IMG/VR virus record: IMGVR_UViG_3300017951_000086
Location: 1-28,603 of that record
DNA from: a virus
DNA: 28,603 nt
Direction: 5' to 3' (one strand)
Of this stretch, positions 2,395 to 19,575 are shown piece by piece. The translations under genes were made by a program, and so were the position numbers. The notes under the pieces are model-generated. The model did not search any database, was not told the DNA's origin, and saw only the letters and a program-made list of their open reading frames with translations. Numbering within the stretch: position 1 is the stretch's first letter; each line of letters starts with the position of its first letter.

Positions 2395-2655
2395 TTATTT
2401 TCCCGTGTACGCGGCTAACAACAGTTCCTCGAACAGTTCCCAATCAATCTCGGCAATGTCCAGTGGTGCCGTCTGTTGGAATACTACCCATGCCTCGTTG
2501 TAGTCCTCCGCCAAAATTAGTTCCTCGATAGTCGGTATCGCCTCAATGAACGTTGGCTCGTAGGCATAGTCCAGTTGGAATTCGTCCAACATGGCTACCA
2601 ATTCTTCTTGCTCGGAATTGACGAACCCTTCTACTACACGTTGCCAAAAACTCAT
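2395..2655 (-). CDS. Small strongly acidic protein, unknown
   Basis: This 86-residue protein has about 20 Asp/Glu and only two Lys/Arg, so its net charge is near -18. Hydrophobic residues are spaced as in amphipathic helices (LFEELLLAAY at the end). It begins with an ATGA overlap with the next upstream small gene and ends 19 bases before the scaffold gene. I recognise no family. Extreme acidity and position beside an ArdA-like gene fit a DNA-mimic or anti-defence role, which is inference only. Confidence 0.7.
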   Translation of the reverse strand: MSFWQRVVEGFVNSEQEELVAMLDEFQLDYAYEPTFIEAIPTIEELILAEDYNEAWVVFQQTAPLDIAEIDWELFEELLLAAYTGK

Positions 2656-2855
2656 GCAATGTCGATTGATACGTACAACTCGTCACGCATCCACGTTACC
2701 AACTCGTCAATGTCTACGGCGTCATACTGTGGTTCGATGTCGATGCTCGTTGACACTGCGTCCCAACGTCGGTCGACCATGATGTATCCGTACCTATCCA
2801 AGATTGGGTTCAATTCTTCGGCGTCGAAGTAGTCGTCAAGGTGCAAGGTGTACAT
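2652..2855 (-). CDS. Small acidic protein, unknown
   Basis: This 67-residue protein has about 17 acidic and four basic residues, a net charge near -13. It has no signal peptide or membrane segment. It shares one base with the upstream gene (TGATG) and overlaps the downstream gene by ATGA, so translation is probably coupled through the block. No family recognised. Confidence 0.7.
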   Translation of the reverse strand: MYTLHLDDYFDAEELNPILDRYGYIMVDRRWDAVSTSIDIEPQYDAVDIDELVTWMRDELYVSIDIA

Positions 2856-3058
2856 CAGAACCGGAACAACTCGTAGTCAATGGCGGCTTCATCCATAATG
2901 GCTTCCGCCTTGCGCAAGTCCGTTACGGCAATGTCAATGTACATGGCACCAAACGCGCCCTCGCCCGTACCGTCAACCCGTACTCCGTCCTCCTCAAAGA
3001 ACATCAGCGCGTCTTCAAAGTCGTCCGGGTCGGCAATTAGAATTCTATCTGTAACCAT
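2855..3058 (-). CDS. Small acidic protein, unknown
   Basis: This 67-residue protein has about 18 acidic and five basic residues (DPDDFEDALMFFEEDG near residues 10-25). The alternating pattern with a hydrophobic beta-like middle (AMYIDIAV) suggests a compact alpha/beta fold. The TAATG junction with the ArdA-like gene suggests coupled translation. No family recognised; a role with the ArdA-like protein is inferred from position. Confidence 0.7.
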   Translation of the reverse strand: MVTDRILIADPDDFEDALMFFEEDGVRVDGTGEGAFGAMYIDIAVTDLRKAEAIMDEAAIDYELFRF

Positions 3059-3789
3059 TAGTAGCTACGGAAAAAGTACCCGTCGACCTCGGTGTAGTCG
3101 TAACTCAAATCGCGGGCGAATGACTTGTAGTCGAAGTAGTCGGACACCTTGTCGCCCAACGCAGACTCAAGGTCGCCCACCATATCGTAGATATACCACT
3201 CTCCAATTTCTTGGTGCGACTTGCGCATAAAGTCGTCGTACACGGCTTGCGCTTCTGCCTCTGTGTCGTACCGGTCTTCCCAATCGTCCATCAAAAGTGA
3301 CCACAAGTCGCCGTTGACGTCCAGCGCATAGCCGAATTTGTCGTAGTCGAAGTACCTATCCGCCAACTCTTTTGGCAGGTCGTTTCCGTATACGTCGTCG
3401 ATAAACTGGTACGCAAAGTCTAACATACTGTCCGCTTGTCCTGCGTAGGCGTTTTCCATGAACTCCTCGTAGTCGTCCGAATAGCCCATTTCGTCAGCCG
3501 CTTTGACAATGACTTCCGGCTTTACGCCGTAGTCTTTAGACACGTCAAACAGTGCGTCCCACTTGTCCCACACGGATTCGTCGCGGTTGATTTGCCACGC
3601 ATCCTCCCTGCCGATGTAGTCGTAGCTGACAATATCGTAGTCGACAAAGCCTAGGCTGTCAATCTTTTCTTGGAAGTCGTCCACCCATGCGTCATACGAA
3701 TTGTAGTCCAGCGGGCGGAATCGCACGTCGGTATCGCCTCCCGTCGGAAGGTAGATACGGTACCAAATTTCAATGTCTGTCTTATTCAT
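3058..3789 (-). CDS. ardA: ArdA-like antirestriction protein with duplicated C-terminal domain
   Basis: ArdA proteins are elongated acidic dimers that mimic B-form DNA and block type I restriction-modification enzymes. This 243-residue protein is strongly acidic and follows the ArdA pattern. Residues 7-60 resemble the N-terminal domain (IWYRIYLPTGG, then YDIVSYDYIG), and 70-120 the middle helical domain. The diagnostic C-terminal motif (Y-x-D-Y-x-x-[FY]-x-x-x-L-x-x-x-G) appears as RYFDYDKFGYALDVNGDLW at 145-163. A second copy, DYFDYKSFARDL followed by DGYFF, lies at 217-240. Known ArdA proteins are about 165-170 residues; the extra ~70 are explained by this second copy. The stop and start overlap neighbours (ATGA, TAATG). 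Function is from family; the duplication is seen in the sequence. Whether it binds the same targets is unknown. Confidence 0.82.
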   Translation of the reverse strand: MNKTDIEIWYRIYLPTGGDTDVRFRPLDYNSYDAWVDDFQEKIDSLGFVDYDIVSYDYIGREDAWQINRDESVWDKWDALFDVSKDYGVKPEVIVKAADEMGYSDDYEEFMENAYAGQADSMLDFAYQFIDDVYGNDLPKELADRYFDYDKFGYALDVNGDLWSLLMDDWEDRYDTEAEAQAVYDDFMRKSHQEIGEWYIYDMVGDLESALGDKVSDYFDYKSFARDLSYDYTEVDGYFFRSY

Positions 3790-4052
3790 GCTACTTCGAT
3801 GCTTGTTGTGTTGATTCGACTAGCAAAGGACTTTGCTTGCACATAGTCTACAAAGGCGTTCCAATGCCCAAGGAATTCGCTTTCGCTGTTGTAGCCCAAA
3901 TCCACTTCGCAGTAGATGAACACATCAGACCCTTCTTGCTCTACGCGAATGTCCCAAAAATCGTAGTCGTATTCGATTGACCAATCCTCCATCAATTCGG
4001 CAATCTGCACCTCGTCTGCGCCTTGTGCGTAGGCTTCAATATACCCTTCCAT
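3786..4052 (-). CDS. Small acidic protein, unknown
   Basis: The ATG at 4052 gives 88 residues and follows the previous stop by one base (TAAGATG). A TTG at 4073 would add seven residues but overlaps the upstream gene. The protein is acidic and aromatic (EYDYDFWDIRVEQEG near residues 28-42), with one Cys. It overlaps the ArdA-like start by ATGA. No family recognised; it is part of the acidic block. Confidence 0.7.
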   Translation of the reverse strand: MEGYIEAYAQGADEVQIAELMEDWSIEYDYDFWDIRVEQEGSDVFIYCEVDLGYNSESEFLGHWNAFVDYVQAKSFASRINTTSIEVA

Positions 4053-4053
4053 C

Positions 4054-4275
4054 TTATCGTGGTCTAAACTCAATCAAAATTCCCTCCGGGTCTTGCCGAA
4101 CGTTCCATACGCTGTACGGCATATTGTGACCTAAATCCAATTCGTCCGCCAAATCATCTGCGACGTCTACTAAATACGTGCCTGTCTGGTCAATCATGAT
4201 GTGAAACACGCTGTGTCCCAACACATTGTAACCAAGGTCTTCCAGTTCACGCACCACGTCTTCCGTATCCCACAT
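4054..4275 (-). CDS. Small acidic protein, unknown
   Basis: This 73-residue protein begins 15 bases after the protease stop. It has a predicted N-terminal helix (TEDVVRELEDLGYNVL), a beta-like middle and an acidic stretch (DVADDLADELDLG near 37-49), ending in a short basic tail (EFRPR). The downstream gene starts one base after its stop. No family recognised. Confidence 0.7.
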   Translation of the reverse strand: MWDTEDVVRELEDLGYNVLGHSVFHIMIDQTGTYLVDVADDLADELDLGHNMPYSVWNVRQDPEGILIEFRPR

Positions 4276-4290
4276 ATTGCAATCTACTAT

Positions 4291-5238
4291 TTAATGCTGA
4301 AAATACCCAAACTCTCTGCGCATACGGGCTTTCATATACGCCTTGTAGAACCGCACCTTGTCCGCGTTCAGTTCCACCTTCTCGTCGTTCTCGGCTTCTC
4401 CTTGCGTCTCCTCTACCGCTGACACCTCGCCGTCGTACTCAATCAGTACACCGTCATAGACTTCCAATTCTACGCCTGCCTGTGTGCGGTACTTGCCGTT
4501 CTTCATCTCTACCGGCATACCCTCGGCGTCAATCATTTTGACCGTTGACCCCGCGCCCATTGCTTCATCCTCGGTAGCAATGACGGTGCCGTCCTCCAAA
4601 CTAATTTCCGTGTAGAACTGGTGGCGACGGAACAAGCCTTTCACCGTCTGCCACAACTTGTCCTTCATGCTCAATTCCTGCTTGCTCTTCTTTGCGCGTC
4701 GTGCCTGTACAACGGAATCAATGAAATAGCCTTCGATGGAGAACCCCCGAATTTCGCCCGCTTTGACCTTCTCCCACATCTCGTCGTTAGCCACGTGTAC
4801 CCGAACCATCCATGTACCCTCCGGCATACTGAACCCGTATGCCTTGGACTTGTCCATGTCCGGGTTCTCCACAATCCACGACTCCACGACGTGTACCCCA
4901 TCAACCGCCGTCTGGTGTTCCAACGTGTGTTCGTTGGTGCGGCTGTGCATCATGTATAGTTCGCTTGCCTTCTTGACCGTCTCGGCACTGAAGAATACAT
5001 CGTATTCCTCGTCGCCGTCATAGCGCACAATATGCTTGTCAGGAATCAGCGCGGCACCAATTAGGGTGCGCTTGTCCTCGTCGACGGTAGCCAACGTGAC
5101 CATGCGCGTAGCGGCACCCTTGCTGAATGCCACCCACAATTCCTCAATAGCCGGGTCGTGAACAAGACTGATTGCCTCAACGGGCAAACCTTCTTGCTCG
5201 TCGCCAATCATGAGTTCTATCAGTTTGCGGTCTGCCAT
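4291..5238 (-). CDS. Prohead protease, XkdF-like phage serine protease
   Basis: This 315-residue protein probably cleaves scaffold and capsid precursors during head maturation. The central block matches the XkdF pattern: HVVESWIVENPDMDKSKAYG, then MPEGTWMVRVHVANDEMW and VKAGEIRGFSIEGYF, containing candidate His and Ser catalytic residues. A basic and acidic C-terminal third follows. The ATG at 5236-5238 (MADRKLIELMIG) is chosen over an upstream in-frame ATG because it forms a TAATG junction with the preceding stop. The same gene start is also copied at two upstream junctions. It lies between small acidic genes, separated from scaffold and capsid by about 1.9 kb, which is unusual. Confidence 0.75.
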   Translation of the reverse strand: MADRKLIELMIGDEQEGLPVEAISLVHDPAIEELWVAFSKGAATRMVTLATVDEDKRTLIGAALIPDKHIVRYDGDEEYDVFFSAETVKKASELYMMHSRTNEHTLEHQTAVDGVHVVESWIVENPDMDKSKAYGFSMPEGTWMVRVHVANDEMWEKVKAGEIRGFSIEGYFIDSVVQARRAKKSKQELSMKDKLWQTVKGLFRRHQFYTEISLEDGTVIATEDEAMGAGSTVKMIDAEGMPVEMKNGKYRTQAGVELEVYDGVLIEYDGEVSAVEETQGEAENDEKVELNADKVRFYKAYMKARMRREFGYFQH

Positions 5239-5240
5239 TA
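5219..5240 (-). repeat. Original copy P of the 22-bp protease-start repeat
   Basis: The first seven codons of the protease gene (MADRKLI) and the preceding TA. An exact 22-base copy lies at 5465-5486 and a 19/22 copy at 5732-5753, each just before a small gene. Confidence 0.85.
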
Positions 5241-5459
5241 GCGTAGGAATTGGATATAGTGGTCTCCCGTTCCTGCTCTCCAACCTTCGACATCTTGATA
5301 GACGCCTTCATTGACGTACTCTTCCGCAATGTCCATCAACTCTGCAAAATCGCCGGGGTACGCCATACTGCCCATGATATACGTTACCATGTCGGCATTT
5401 TGCTCGACATCGTAGTCAATGCCGAATTGGTCTATTTCTGTTCCGAAAGTGCCATACAT
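5238..5459 (-). CDS. Small acidic cargo protein, unknown
   Basis: This 73-residue protein (MYGTFGTEIDQFG start) is acidic with few basic residues and no membrane segment. Its stop forms TAATG with the protease start. Its ATG follows by one base the stop of a seven-codon mini-ORF copied from the protease start, a layout suited to translational reinitiation. No family recognised. It looks like a cargo gene inserted in front of the protease. Confidence 0.7.
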   Translation of the reverse strand: MYGTFGTEIDQFGIDYDVEQNADMVTYIMGSMAYPGDFAELMDIAEEYVNEGVYQDVEGWRAGTGDHYIQFLR

Positions 5460-5460
5460 C

Positions 5461-5486
5461 TCAAATCAGTTTGCGGTCTGCCATTA
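5461..5486 (-). repeat. Copy Q of the protease start, forming a seven-codon mini-ORF
   Basis: Minus-strand ATG at 5484 reads M-A-D-R-K-L-I-stop, ending at 5461. Bases 5465-5486 are identical over 22 bases to the true protease start. The mini-ORF starts within the TAATG of the 80-residue gene's stop, and its TGA is one base before the next ATG. It is best read as an insertion scar that may also couple translation. Confidence 0.8.
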
Positions 5487-5726
5487 GGGTTCAAGGATAT
5501 GCACTGAATTGCCAAAGACTTCGTACAGCGCGTCGAACATCTCCTGCTCTTCTGCCAACCCTTCGCCCGTCAAGTCTACCATGACTTGTGTGTCGTATGC
5601 GCCATTAATTAGAAACACTTCGGGCAAGTCACGCCTGTCTCGCATCAATGCCTCTTCTAATATGTCCTTGACCTCATATACGGTTGCGCTTCCGTCGTCA
5701 ATCAGAATGTCTCTTGAAAATGCCAT
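5484..5726 (-). CDS. Small acidic cargo protein, unknown
   Basis: This 80-residue protein has an acidic helix (VYEVKDILEEALMRD) and a Gly/Glu-rich segment (LTGEGLAEEQEMFDALYEVF). It follows mini-ORF copy R by one base (TAAGATG), and its stop overlaps mini-ORF copy Q. No family recognised. The flanking copies mark it as a separate cassette. Confidence 0.7.
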   Translation of the reverse strand: MAFSRDILIDDGSATVYEVKDILEEALMRDRRDLPEVFLINGAYDTQVMVDLTGEGLAEEQEMFDALYEVFGNSVHILEP

Positions 5727-5727
5727 C

Positions 5728-5753
5728 TTAAATCAGTTTGGGGTGTGTCATTA
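5728..5753 (-). repeat. Copy R of the protease start, diverged mini-ORF
   Basis: Minus-strand ATG at 5751 reads M-T-H-P-K-L-I-stop. Bases 5732-5753 match 19 of 22 bases of the protease start. Copies Q and R also agree beyond the repeat (AACTGATTT, one variable base, AGATG), so they are related to each other as well as to the protease. The larger divergence suggests an older event than copy Q. Confidence 0.75.
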
Positions 5754-5754
5754 T

Positions 5755-6033
5755 TCAATAAGGGTCGTACACGGCAACGACTTGAAAGTATTTGGGGCCG
5801 TCGTCGAAGGATGCCCAAAATTCGTGACCGGTGTTTTTCAGTGCGGTTGCCAACCGTGACTCCGCCTCTTCAATCATTTCGCCTTGAAGGTCGTAACTGA
5901 TTGGGTATCGAAAGACAACTTCATAGTCATCGCCTGTCAAGGTGCCGTGACTATATATCTCACTTTCGCCCAACTGCTCCACCTTGTGCGCAACGTCTAA
6001 AGCAATCTCTTTTGTCAGTTGTTTTACATTCAT
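5755..6033 (-). CDS. Small acidic cargo protein, unknown
   Basis: This 92-residue protein has an N-terminal helix (LTKEIALDVAHKVEQLGE), a beta-like centre (DYEVVFRYPISYDL) and a second helix. Its start lies 22 bases after the tape measure stop, behind a CCCTATATA sequence also found before the scaffold gene. Its stop precedes mini-ORF copy R. It is less acidic than the neighbours. No family recognised. Confidence 0.7.
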   Translation of the reverse strand: MNVKQLTKEIALDVAHKVEQLGESEIYSHGTLTGDDYEVVFRYPISYDLQGEMIEEAESRLATALKNTGHEFWASFDDGPKYFQVVAVYDPY

Positions 6034-6055
6034 CTACTCTACTATATAGGGCTGT

Positions 6056-7954
6056 TTATAGTACCGTCTGGTAGTCTAAGCGTTCCTGTTCCAATGCGCT
6101 ACCCTGCAAATCCGACTGCACGACATAGGCGTGTAGCGGCTCTATCTGTCCCCCTGTAAACTGCACGTTGGGTACCATGCCTTGACGCCAACCTTGTAGC
6201 CCGGCATTGCCCATTCTCCGAACTGCGCCACCGCCCGTTGCCGTATCGCCTCCGCCGTCGTCCGGACTCTCGTACTTCATAGCCTTGATTTTGGCAACCT
6301 TCGCTAGACCCGCGGCAATTGCTGAACCCGCCGATATAGCCGCTCGAATTGGTGCATCCGGACTCGGCACCGTCATTTGTGACTGGTACGCCTTCTGTGC
6401 CGCGGCATACGTACTCATGATAGTTTCCGCTAGTTGGATACGCTTTGATGCCTCGAAATTCTTTCGGCTCTGCTCGTCTTGCTGTGCGCGTTCCTTGTCG
6501 TTGAACGCCCGGAAGATGCCAATCAAATCCATCGCCGCGTTCTCTCGCAGACTAGCTAACCGTTCCTGTTGTTGCTCGGCGTCATCCCGTTCCTTCGCGT
6601 CTGCATCCTCTCGCAGTTTCTCAAGGTCTGCGTTCAACTGCTCCGTAGCCGCTCGAATCAGTCCCTCGTCGTCGCCGGCAATTGCTACCCTCTGGTCGTA
6701 CAACTGCATCAGCCGCCGTTCTTCTAGGTCGTACTCGGACATTTGCAGTTCCTCCAACTCCGTAGCCAATTCCTGACGTGCCTTTAGTTCGTCTTGGTCT
6801 TGCGCGTCGCGCTGGTCTTGGAACTGTTTTTGGATAGCTAGGCGGTCAGCGTCGTATTGCTGTTCGAGAATGAGCAACTGTTCGTCGGTCGCCCCTCGTG
6901 CTTCCAGTTGCGCCTTGGCGTCCTTGTACTCGAACTCCCGCTTCTTCAATGCTCGTTGCTCGTCGTCCTCCAACATCTGCAACGTCATATCCCGTTGAAT
7001 CTTGACAATCTGGTCAGCCACGTATTGCTCGTCTGCCAACCGCTTTGCCGCGTCCTGCTCGTCTTTCCTGTTCTGCTCCTCCTTGGCGTCGTCATCCATT
7101 TTGTTACGCCGCAACTGATACCCCGCCCGTTGGTTCTCCAACTTCAACAGTTGGTCTTCTGCCTCGTCAATTAGTTTGTTGCCGTCCTCCCGTGCCTTGT
7201 CCGGGTCGAACCCTAGCAGGGATGCACCGCCTTCGAGGTAGTCAGTAACCAACGTCGTCGCCTCCTCCATGACTCCGATTTGCGCAAGACCGTAAGTCAG
7301 CGCGTCAACGGCAGTTAGCAATACCGTCAGCGGTGCAGAGATAAGGGCAAGAATTGCCATGCTCGCATTCTTGGCTTGCTCCTCAAACTTCACCTGTTCG
7401 TTCGTCTGGTCAATCAGACTTTGAACCATGATTTCCTGTGCGGCTATGGCTTCATCAGTTGCCGCCATACGCATGGCTAACAAGTCCTCTTCCGTCTTGC
7501 CTTGTAGCTTCAGGATGTTTTCCTGTTGGCTGATGGCGTCAAGGTTGTCCTGCGAAAGTTGCACCTGCTCTTTGGCTAGGTCTACCTGTTTCTGCGTTTC
7601 GTCCGATGCCGCCGTAATGCTCTCACTTATGCTGTCCCAATTGGCGACAATCTCACCCAACGCCACCACAAGCAATCCCAAACCGGTGGATGCGATAGCA
7701 CCTTTGAGAACCTTAAAGCCTTTAGACAATCGCCCAATCTGTCGTTGGGCTGACTTGAACCCACGGATACTCGACTGCAAGCCACGCGGCAACAACCCGC
7801 TGAACAGGTCGCCAACGCCACCCCAATCCTTGTTGGCTTTCTTGGCGGCATTCGATGCGTCCTCGCCTAGCTTCTTCACGTCACGACTCGCACGACGAAT
7901 GGGCGCACTAGCCTTATTGGTTGCCTTGATGTTTACGTTAACGGTACTCGCCAT
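6056..7954 (-). CDS. Tail length tape measure protein
   Basis: Tape measure proteins occupy the tail lumen and set tail length; 632 residues predict a tail near 95 nm by the usual 1.5 angstrom per residue rule. The N-terminus is basic and helical. Hydrophobic segments lie at about 85-104 (GAIASTGLGLLVVALGEIV) and 199-227 (AILALISAPLTVLLTAV). A long Gln/Glu/Arg-rich coiled coil runs from about 260 to 500. The C-terminal part is Gly-rich. The KGFKVLKGAIASTGLG block is typical of tape measures in Bacteroidota phages. Its start overlaps the preceding 57-residue gene by 17 bases. Confidence 0.88.
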   Translation of the reverse strand: MASTVNVNIKATNKASAPIRRASRDVKKLGEDASNAAKKANKDWGGVGDLFSGLLPRGLQSSIRGFKSAQRQIGRLSKGFKVLKGAIASTGLGLLVVALGEIVANWDSISESITAASDETQKQVDLAKEQVQLSQDNLDAISQQENILKLQGKTEEDLLAMRMAATDEAIAAQEIMVQSLIDQTNEQVKFEEQAKNASMAILALISAPLTVLLTAVDALTYGLAQIGVMEEATTLVTDYLEGGASLLGFDPDKAREDGNKLIDEAEDQLLKLENQRAGYQLRRNKMDDDAKEEQNRKDEQDAAKRLADEQYVADQIVKIQRDMTLQMLEDDEQRALKKREFEYKDAKAQLEARGATDEQLLILEQQYDADRLAIQKQFQDQRDAQDQDELKARQELATELEELQMSEYDLEERRLMQLYDQRVAIAGDDEGLIRAATEQLNADLEKLREDADAKERDDAEQQQERLASLRENAAMDLIGIFRAFNDKERAQQDEQSRKNFEASKRIQLAETIMSTYAAAQKAYQSQMTVPSPDAPIRAAISAGSAIAAGLAKVAKIKAMKYESPDDGGGDTATGGGAVRRMGNAGLQGWRQGMVPNVQFTGGQIEPLHAYVVQSDLQGSALEQERLDYQTVL

Positions 7955-18750: not shown

Positions 18751-19183
18751 CGCTCAATGTGTTTAGTGAATGTTCGTGCAGGTAGTACGCCTTGAATATC
18801 TCTGCGTCTATCCATCGAATTTCCTGCAATATATGAAATACCCCTTCTATCTGGTTTTCTATGTCTACAATATTTTTTTCCTCGTCTTGTTCTACGTTAC
18901 GGAATATCTCCATAGGTAGCCCCCGCGCCTCTTTCTCGGTGTGCTTCTTGTACTTCTTGTAGAACGGGCTACTGCTACTGAACCCGCATATCTGCATGGT
19001 TCGGTTCAGGTATGCTCCTAGTTCCCCGCGCTCGCACAACTGCTCGGCGTGGTCGTTCTCGTTCAAGTAGTTCAGGCACAAATCATTCAGCAAGTCGCCC
19101 GCTAAATCTGACCCTACATACTTCCGGGCTAACCGGTACAGGTGGTTGTAGTTCTCCGTAAGGTAGCGACGAACACAACTCAT
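18491..19183 (-). CDS. RNA polymerase sigma-70-like factor
   Basis: Residues 12-45 (YNHLYRLARKYVGSDLAGDL) resemble sigma region 2. Residues 138-165 (SLNTLSDATGISRHTIYKAV) form a sigma region 4 type HTH. The total is 230 residues, but the last ~55 are Gly/Arg/Gln-rich and lie over the 138-residue gene, so they are probably an unconstrained read-through. Phage sigma-like factors redirect host RNA polymerase to late promoters; CTATATATATAGA elements are candidate targets. It is encoded with NinG upstream and an alpha-CTD-like gene downstream. Overlap with NinG is ATGA. The sigma call is by pattern. Confidence 0.65.
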   Translation of the reverse strand: MSCVRRYLTENYNHLYRLARKYVGSDLAGDLLNDLCLNYLNENDHAEQLCERGELGAYLNRTMQICGFSSSSPFYKKYKKHTEKEARGLPMEIFRNVEQDEEKNIVDIENQIEGVFHILQEIRWIDAEIFKAYYLHEHSLNTLSDATGISRHTIYKAVKTAQAYCEENRERIRGYGGEPNSGAGQESGEGSSRGRLRMRQAEGMVEPQIPVLQNDGRQGQEGLGNGTVAS

Positions 19184-19575
19184 TGCTTCAGCCTCCGTTC
19201 AAACTCCGCTCTCATGTCCCGCAAATCCTGAATGGAGAATTTGCTAGGCTGGTTCGATAGGTACACGATGCGGTCGGCTGTACCCTCGCCGTACACCGCG
19301 TCCAACTTCTTGGCGAACAGGTACTGTTGCCCGCCGTTGGTCATGTTACACCGTTTGCACTGGCATTGTACGTTGGTCAACCCTTGCTCCGGCTCGTACA
19401 ACCACCGCGTAGAATGCTTACTGCGCGACATAAAATGCCCGCAATCCATCGCTTGCCACCGCTCCCTGCGACCGCACGTCCAGCACGTAGCTATACCGGA
19501 TTCGTCGGCGGCTGACTGCCTGACCAATTTGCTTAACGCCGCGTCTAGTTTCTTCTTTTCTAGTGACCTACCCAC
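19180..19575 (-). CDS. ninG: NinG-like recombination endonuclease
   Basis: NinG (Rap) of lambda is a structure-specific endonuclease acting on Holliday junctions and D-loops in phage recombination. This 131-residue protein has the family pattern: CWTCGRR (residues 31-37), then CGHFMSRSKHSTRW and VQCQCKRCNMTNGGQQ, giving the Cys clusters of a zinc site. The C-terminal part is helical. It is somewhat shorter than lambda NinG (204 residues), so part of the N-terminal region is lacking. It overlaps the sigma-like gene by ATGA and follows the replication genes. Confidence 0.82.
   Translation of the reverse strand: MGRSLEKKKLDAALSKLVRQSAADESGIATCWTCGRRERWQAMDCGHFMSRSKHSTRWLYEPEQGLTNVQCQCKRCNMTNGGQQYLFAKKLDAVYGEGTADRIVYLSNQPSKFSIQDLRDMRAEFERRLKQ

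Follow-up and report, generated by a model that had tools for sequence, protein, structure and literature searches.

Small unannotated phage genes are commonly attributed to random mosaicism. Integron gene cassettes form single-gene arrays in shuffled order, and involve a site-specific integrase and folded attC sites. The SAS/ESAS of cluster K mycobacteriophages are 13-bp sequences in the non-structural half of the genome (PMC3203893), and the PeSL of T4-type phages combine a promoter with a stem-loop, as the original work (Arbiol 2010, Comeau 2014) is cited in PMC4503421. MIRU are mobile short elements at start codons in which a small ORF is translationally coupled to the next gene, and short coupled ORFs have been proposed to deliver ribosomes to the downstream gene (PMC12548453). 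In T4, the internal proteins that block host restriction are encoded by small accessory genes present in varying sets; these proteins bear an N-terminal capsid signal and are injected together with the DNA (PMC12373910).

The window analyzed here is the entire record of a viral contig (IMGVR_UViG_3300017951_000086; 28,603 nucleotides), possibly a fragment, from a tailed marine phage whose minus-strand genes include those for portal, terminase, tape-measure, protease, scaffold-like and capsid-like proteins. We propose, at a probability of roughly 70%, that short repeats of its protease gene start join the cassettes of an array of accessory genes within the virion gene block. A cassette would consist of a single small acidic gene preceded on its 5′ side by a joint, which the array-end protease would likewise bear; in the window phage and in a second phage, L017, the joint would be the start of the protease gene, made into a seven-codon ORF (mini-ORF) by a stop codon. 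The joint would travel with each cassette, providing identical ends for exchange, and because the junctions of an array have one sequence, which would let joints recombine, whole genes could be added, deleted or swapped without damage to their neighbours. To our knowledge, none of PeSL, SAS and MIRU unites single-gene cassettes, joints that equal the start of the array-end gene and a shuffled order, and a limited literature search found no existing description of such arrays.

Arrays of the window type resemble those of integrons in being composed of single genes whose order is shuffled; they differ in that no attC-like folded site was identified, and no integrase was found among the window genes scanned, which are a part of the genes of a record that may be a fragment. 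With the SAS the joints have in common that a short conserved sequence stands few bases before many start codons and before different gene families in related phages (PMC3203893). However, the SAS have not been shown as exchange breakpoints, whereas the joints described here are confined to the cargo array of the virion block and coincide with cassette breakpoints, and both AAACAACAGAGATATG and the mini-ORF differ from the consensus GGGATAGGAGCCC that precedes start codons by few bases. PeSL are likewise repeated elements between genes, through which small phage genes are shuffled as modules (PMC4503421); they differ from the present joints, each of which is either a start leader of 17 bp or a neighbouring gene's start in closed copy. 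Joints of 17–24 bp could hardly accommodate a promoter and a stem-loop, and inspection by eye showed neither. The small closed ORF and close spacing of MIRU are present in the window, although the MIRU spacing to the coupled gene is −4 nt (PMC12548453) and that between the mini-ORF stop and the next ATG is one base; furthermore, the mini-ORF duplicates the start of a neighbouring gene and separates exchangeable cargo genes, and evidence for its own mobility comes from one other phage. Finally, the cargo resembles the T4 internal-protein genes as a variable set of small accessory genes, the capsid signal and the injection with the DNA being features of the T4 proteins.

Within the window (Table 1), TAATGGCAGACCGCAAACTGAT occurs on the minus strand at 5219-5240, where it forms the protease start, and at 5465-5486, in both cases with 0 mismatches, and at 5732-5753 with three mismatches; the fourth-best position has seven mismatches, and 0 of 100 dinucleotide shuffles matched the observed copies. 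The exact identity of the first two copies reaches one base further upstream (CTAATGG..., 23/23); on the downstream side, the flank AAACTGATTT(G/A)AGATG is common to both extra copies. Both extra copies read out as closed mini-ORFs, ATG GCA GAC CGC AAA CTG ATT TGA at 5484-5461 and ATG ACA CAC CCC AAA CTG ATT TAA at 5751-5728, and in both a single base separates the stop codon from the ATG of the small gene that comes next. Consistent with the initial annotation, the seven-codon protease start therefore recurs in 22/22 and 19/22 bases, each time closed one base before a small gene, and the gene calls around the repeat are the same. That annotation also had both mini-ORFs overlapping the previous stop codon, which is correct for the 5465 copy (TAATG), whereas at the 5732 copy a TGA lies three bases before (TGA-ATA-ATG). 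The element is not a general repeat: the window contains no further copies, and degenerate scans of viral and genome contigs support this.

Table 1. Features of the proposed cassette arrays and neighbouring genes in the window
Feature	Positions	Strand	Basis or remark
Tape-measure protein gene, 632 aa, left border of cassette site	6056..7954	-	PHROG tail length tape measure, E 5e-12; border conserved in relatives
Cargo gene 1, 92 aa, net charge -10	5755..6033	-	No family match
Mini-ORF joint C, M-T-H-P-K-L-I-stop (TAA), next ATG after 1 nt	5728..5751	-	Repeat 5732-5753, 19/22
Cargo gene 2, 80 aa, net charge -14, predicted beta-alpha-beta-beta-alpha-beta fold	5484..5726	-	pLDDT 83
Mini-ORF joint B, M-A-D-R-K-L-I-stop (TGA), next ATG after 1 nt; TAATG overlap with previous stop	5461..5484	-	Repeat 5465-5487 exact; 24/24 identical to L017/L014 mini-ORF
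Cargo gene 3, 73 aa, net charge -13	5238..5459	-	No relative in viral contigs
Joint copy A, protease gene start	5219..5241	-	Repeat scan
XkdF-like head maturation serine protease (Peptidase_S78_2), right border of cassette site	4291..5238	-	PF14550 E 8e-19; PHROG head maturation protease
Small acidic gene of array II, 73 aa, lacking a mini-ORF joint	4054..4275	-	Relative in L120/L123 arrays, E 5e-9
Small acidic gene, 88-95 aa, array II	3786..4073	-	Gene calls, charge
ArdA-like anti-restriction protein, 243 aa, net charge -40	3058..3789	-	PF07275 E 1.3e-9; PHROG anti-restriction
Small acidic gene, 67 aa, array III, ferredoxin/ACT-like predicted fold	2855..3058	-	Relatives are cassettes in L102, L112, L138
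Small acidic gene, 67 aa, array III	2652..2855	-	Charge
Conserved 86-aa gene before scaffold-like gene, right border of array III	2395..2655	-	Comparison across loci
NinG/Rap-like DNA junction endonuclease	19183..19575	-	PHROG E 3e-20

Between mini-ORF copies B and C there are three substitutions, each of which changes an amino acid, yet frame, start, stop and 1-nt spacing are kept, in L017 as well. Because the substitutions alter the peptide and spare this arrangement, selection may act on the architecture rather than on the peptide, as the thin evidence of three compared sequences suggests. Since the mini-ORF start either overlaps the stop codon of the upstream gene or adjoins it, and a single base separates the mini-ORF's end from the next start, ribosomes could be handed on from gene to gene; we rate such a relay by translational coupling as plausible, at slightly less than even odds. 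A TATATAG-like element, possibly a late promoter, was observed at 6034-6055, directly before the first of the cargo genes that follow the tape-measure gene, and a second time at 2376-2395, before the scaffold-like gene; similar sequences occupy the corresponding places in L002-L005.

To compare the cassette site, we gathered protease relatives from viral contigs. Compared at this locus, they include the empty as well as the filled states that the initial annotation had suggested looking for: in distant relatives the tape-measure gene ends few bases before the protease, and in close relatives 1, 3, 4, 6, 7 or 11 small genes, differing by phage, lie between the two. Across many loci the order is tape measure, array, protease, array, ArdA, array, 86-aa gene, scaffold and capsid, with the presence of the arrays and of ArdA varying at each place. 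The closest cultured relative found by protein search is Nonlabens phage P12024S (38% in the protease), in which, if the linear record is read as permuted, a DNA methyltransferase and opposite-strand small genes stand between a long gene, presumably that of its tape measure, and the protease; the cultured phage collection contained no close relative of the arrays. In two Rhizobium phage records (MN988459.1 and MN988558.1) a gene is annotated as DNA methyltransferase/prohead protease, which would be a further case of an anti-restriction function coupled to such a protease.

Most relatives have another short sequence as their joint, one that contains no protease codons. In L003-L006, TAAAACAACTTAAA(G)ATG or near variants stand before the cargo genes and the protease, and in L007-L012 the joint is TAA-ACAACAGAGAT-ATG, a 17-bp sequence with a nearly constant gap of 11 bases; only a purine/A-rich core near the ATG is common to the joint types. 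A scan for the 17-bp joint yielded 100 viral stretches, of which, with two mismatches allowed, 48 had at least two joints and 44 at least three; the ORFs behind them are mostly 40–110 aa in length. The protease itself has this joint (0–2 mismatches) in eight loci, all with an upstream cassette array; two further loci have a diverged form before the protease, and several have none. Where cassettes sit only downstream of the protease, it lacks the 17-bp joint, and the tape-measure, scaffold-like and capsid-like genes of the same loci never have one. Genome contigs yielded one real array, that of L216, and 33 single matches, approximately the chance expectation.

Several occurrences of the 17-bp joint stand out. 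L216, a genome contig from a Pseudomonadales MAG bin (JAFMIA010000163.1), has five joints spaced as in L117 and is probably a misbinned phage contig. A conserved 284–285-aa gene (MLKQIHISKSNFSWFED...) is preceded by the joint in L105, L109, L140, L141, L178, L179 and L191; several contigs with this gene are otherwise single-match, and they perhaps represent an unrelated phage group with a common start leader. Inside arrays, a 268–273-aa gene occurs as a cassette with its own exact joint (L145:4332-5135, L155:4624-5439, L103, L142); its identification as ArdA was rejected, Pfam giving no ArdA match.

From 54 viral loci we extracted 278 cassettes, which form 126 clusters at 80% identity, and 21 cargo clusters have two or more different upstream neighbours each. 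Among cassettes at least 90% identical in DNA and chosen for different neighbours, identity is about 0.95 through the ORF and joint and drops to about 0.3 at both kinds of switch, just past the previous stop codon on the upstream side (n = 29) and immediately behind the next ATG on the downstream side (n = 22). The low outside identity is partly built into this choice of pairs, and the informative point is that the change falls at the joint edge and not within genes. For the 17-bp type, repeats thus mark the junctions, and content and order change at these repeats, as in modular shuffling; exchange of cassettes at the joints is well supported, and homology between joints, acting through homologous recombination or annealing, is its likely cause. 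Joints of 17–24 bp offer short homology for ordinary RecA recombination, and in the subset of window genes scanned no RecT/Red-type or annealing recombinase was identified; the NinG/Rap-like endonuclease is a possible recombination function that may be linked to cassette exchange. Precise switching was seen for the 17-bp type only, the data holding no pair of mini-ORF phages with common cargo, and no relatives of cargo genes 2 and 3 were found in viral contigs. A repeat and a difference in content are what was observed for the mini-ORF type, to which the cassette-joint reading of the 17-bp type would apply by extension.

A degenerate scan of viral contigs for mini-ORF joints identified one further phage type, sampled twice (L014 and L017), and the L017 protease is 51% identical to that of the window. 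The L017/L014 mini-ORF equals the window 5465 copy over 24 bases (TAATGGCAGACCGCAAACTGATTT), and L017's own protease start differs by one; because the mini-ORF matches the window copy and not the protease of its own genome, the mini-ORF joints appear to be one shared family. It ends in a stop codon, one base and the ATG of the last cargo gene, and the flanking DNA has no evident similarity. In both phages that possess them, mini-ORFs are located at the protease-proximal array end. Among 126 protease-bearing loci, copies were found only in the window and L017/L014 phages, other matches being dismissed as A-rich chance matches; matches in L015 and L016, away from any protease gene, were likewise dismissed as chance, and genome contigs lacked the mini-ORF joint. 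Since some cargo families of the mini-ORF phages recur as cassettes in 17-bp-joint arrays, the joint types appear to draw on a common cargo pool.

Representative cargo proteins have a median length of 79 and a mean net charge of −11, and PADLOC, Pfam and PHROG scans of 111 array proteins returned almost nothing besides ArdA. The ArdA assignment in the window is based on a profile score of 39.3 bits (curated cutoff 27) and on the acidic charge. The proteins encoded at 5484-5726 and 2855-3058 are both predicted to adopt a beta-alpha-beta-beta-alpha-beta fold (pLDDT 83 and 90) and have no evident sequence similarity; the Foldseek matches of the two models, generic ACT/PII ferredoxin-like folds, were rejected as a functional lead. 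The L017 protease ORF (L017:4082-5758) ends in an ArdA domain, and in L120/L123 one 544-aa ORF matches both protease and ArdA, so that in such fusion phages ArdA might be carried into the capsid with the protease. The neighbourhood of ArdA and the acidic charge make a counter-defence role of the cargo plausible, and the protease-ArdA fusions likewise point to a counter-defence island; judging from these sequence features, we give this predicted role an even chance.

As the joints lie exactly at start codons, and only a purine/A-rich core near the ATG is common to their types, their conservation could reflect translation alone. They would then be translation-start signals only, much as the SAS of cluster K mycobacteriophages have been proposed to act in translation (PMC3203893), while illegitimate recombination exchanged the genes and selection kept leader and frame. 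We consider this unlikely, since the major structural genes of the same loci lack the joint, and the protease has it only with an upstream array; moreover, the mini-ORF joint contains protease codons that a start signal would not need, and the joint type varies by phage although cargo families cross types.

The initial annotation regarded each mini-ORF as the scar of a separate cargo insertion at the protease start, the oldest copy being furthest upstream. Empty and filled sites support the gain of cargo there, and the order of divergence (0, 0 and 3 mismatches), which comes from one array, fits the proposed ages, as does the protease-proximal position of the copies in both mini-ORF phages fit successive insertion. 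However, relatives with other joints re-order their cassettes freely, with no ordered stacking, and the L017 mini-ORF equals that of the window rather than its own protease start. As cassettes of the 17-bp type switch exactly at joint edges, we interpret the copies as cassette-carried joints and not as independent scars in this genome, an origin that we judge improbable. Single-gene cassettes, uniform short joints, precise junctions and shuffled order would also be expected if an integron-like or transposon-like recombinase recognised the joint as its site and moved the cassettes; this is very improbable, as the neighbourhood of the arrays yielded no such recombinase, the short joints show by eye no obvious hairpin or inverted repeat, and every cassette junction is a stop-to-start boundary that homology alone explains. 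Short repeats are common in phages, but chance or an ordinary tandem duplication of the protease 5′ end is scarcely credible given the shuffle control, the lack of evident mutual similarity among the genes between the copies, with no larger duplicated block seen, and the presence of the same element at the same position in another phage.

With joints as the ends of cassettes, the arrays have a defined exchange unit (one gene and its joint), a defined joint sequence and a defined landing site, which makes gain and loss of accessory genes traceable. Because ArdA adjoins the arrays and the cargo is strongly acidic, the arrays represent a concentrated source of candidate anti-restriction and counter-defence proteins, comprising approximately 100 sequence families, nearly all unannotated. 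More tentatively, and with the odds against the full picture, marine phages that probably infect Bacteroidota may trade interchangeable single-gene counter-defence cassettes, linked by duplicates of the translation start of the array-end gene, at these joints without an integrase, and some products, such as the protease-ArdA fusions, may be packaged together with the head protease and delivered with the DNA. In the mini-ORF version, a gene's own start would have been turned into a reusable joint, which may also sustain translation through the array.
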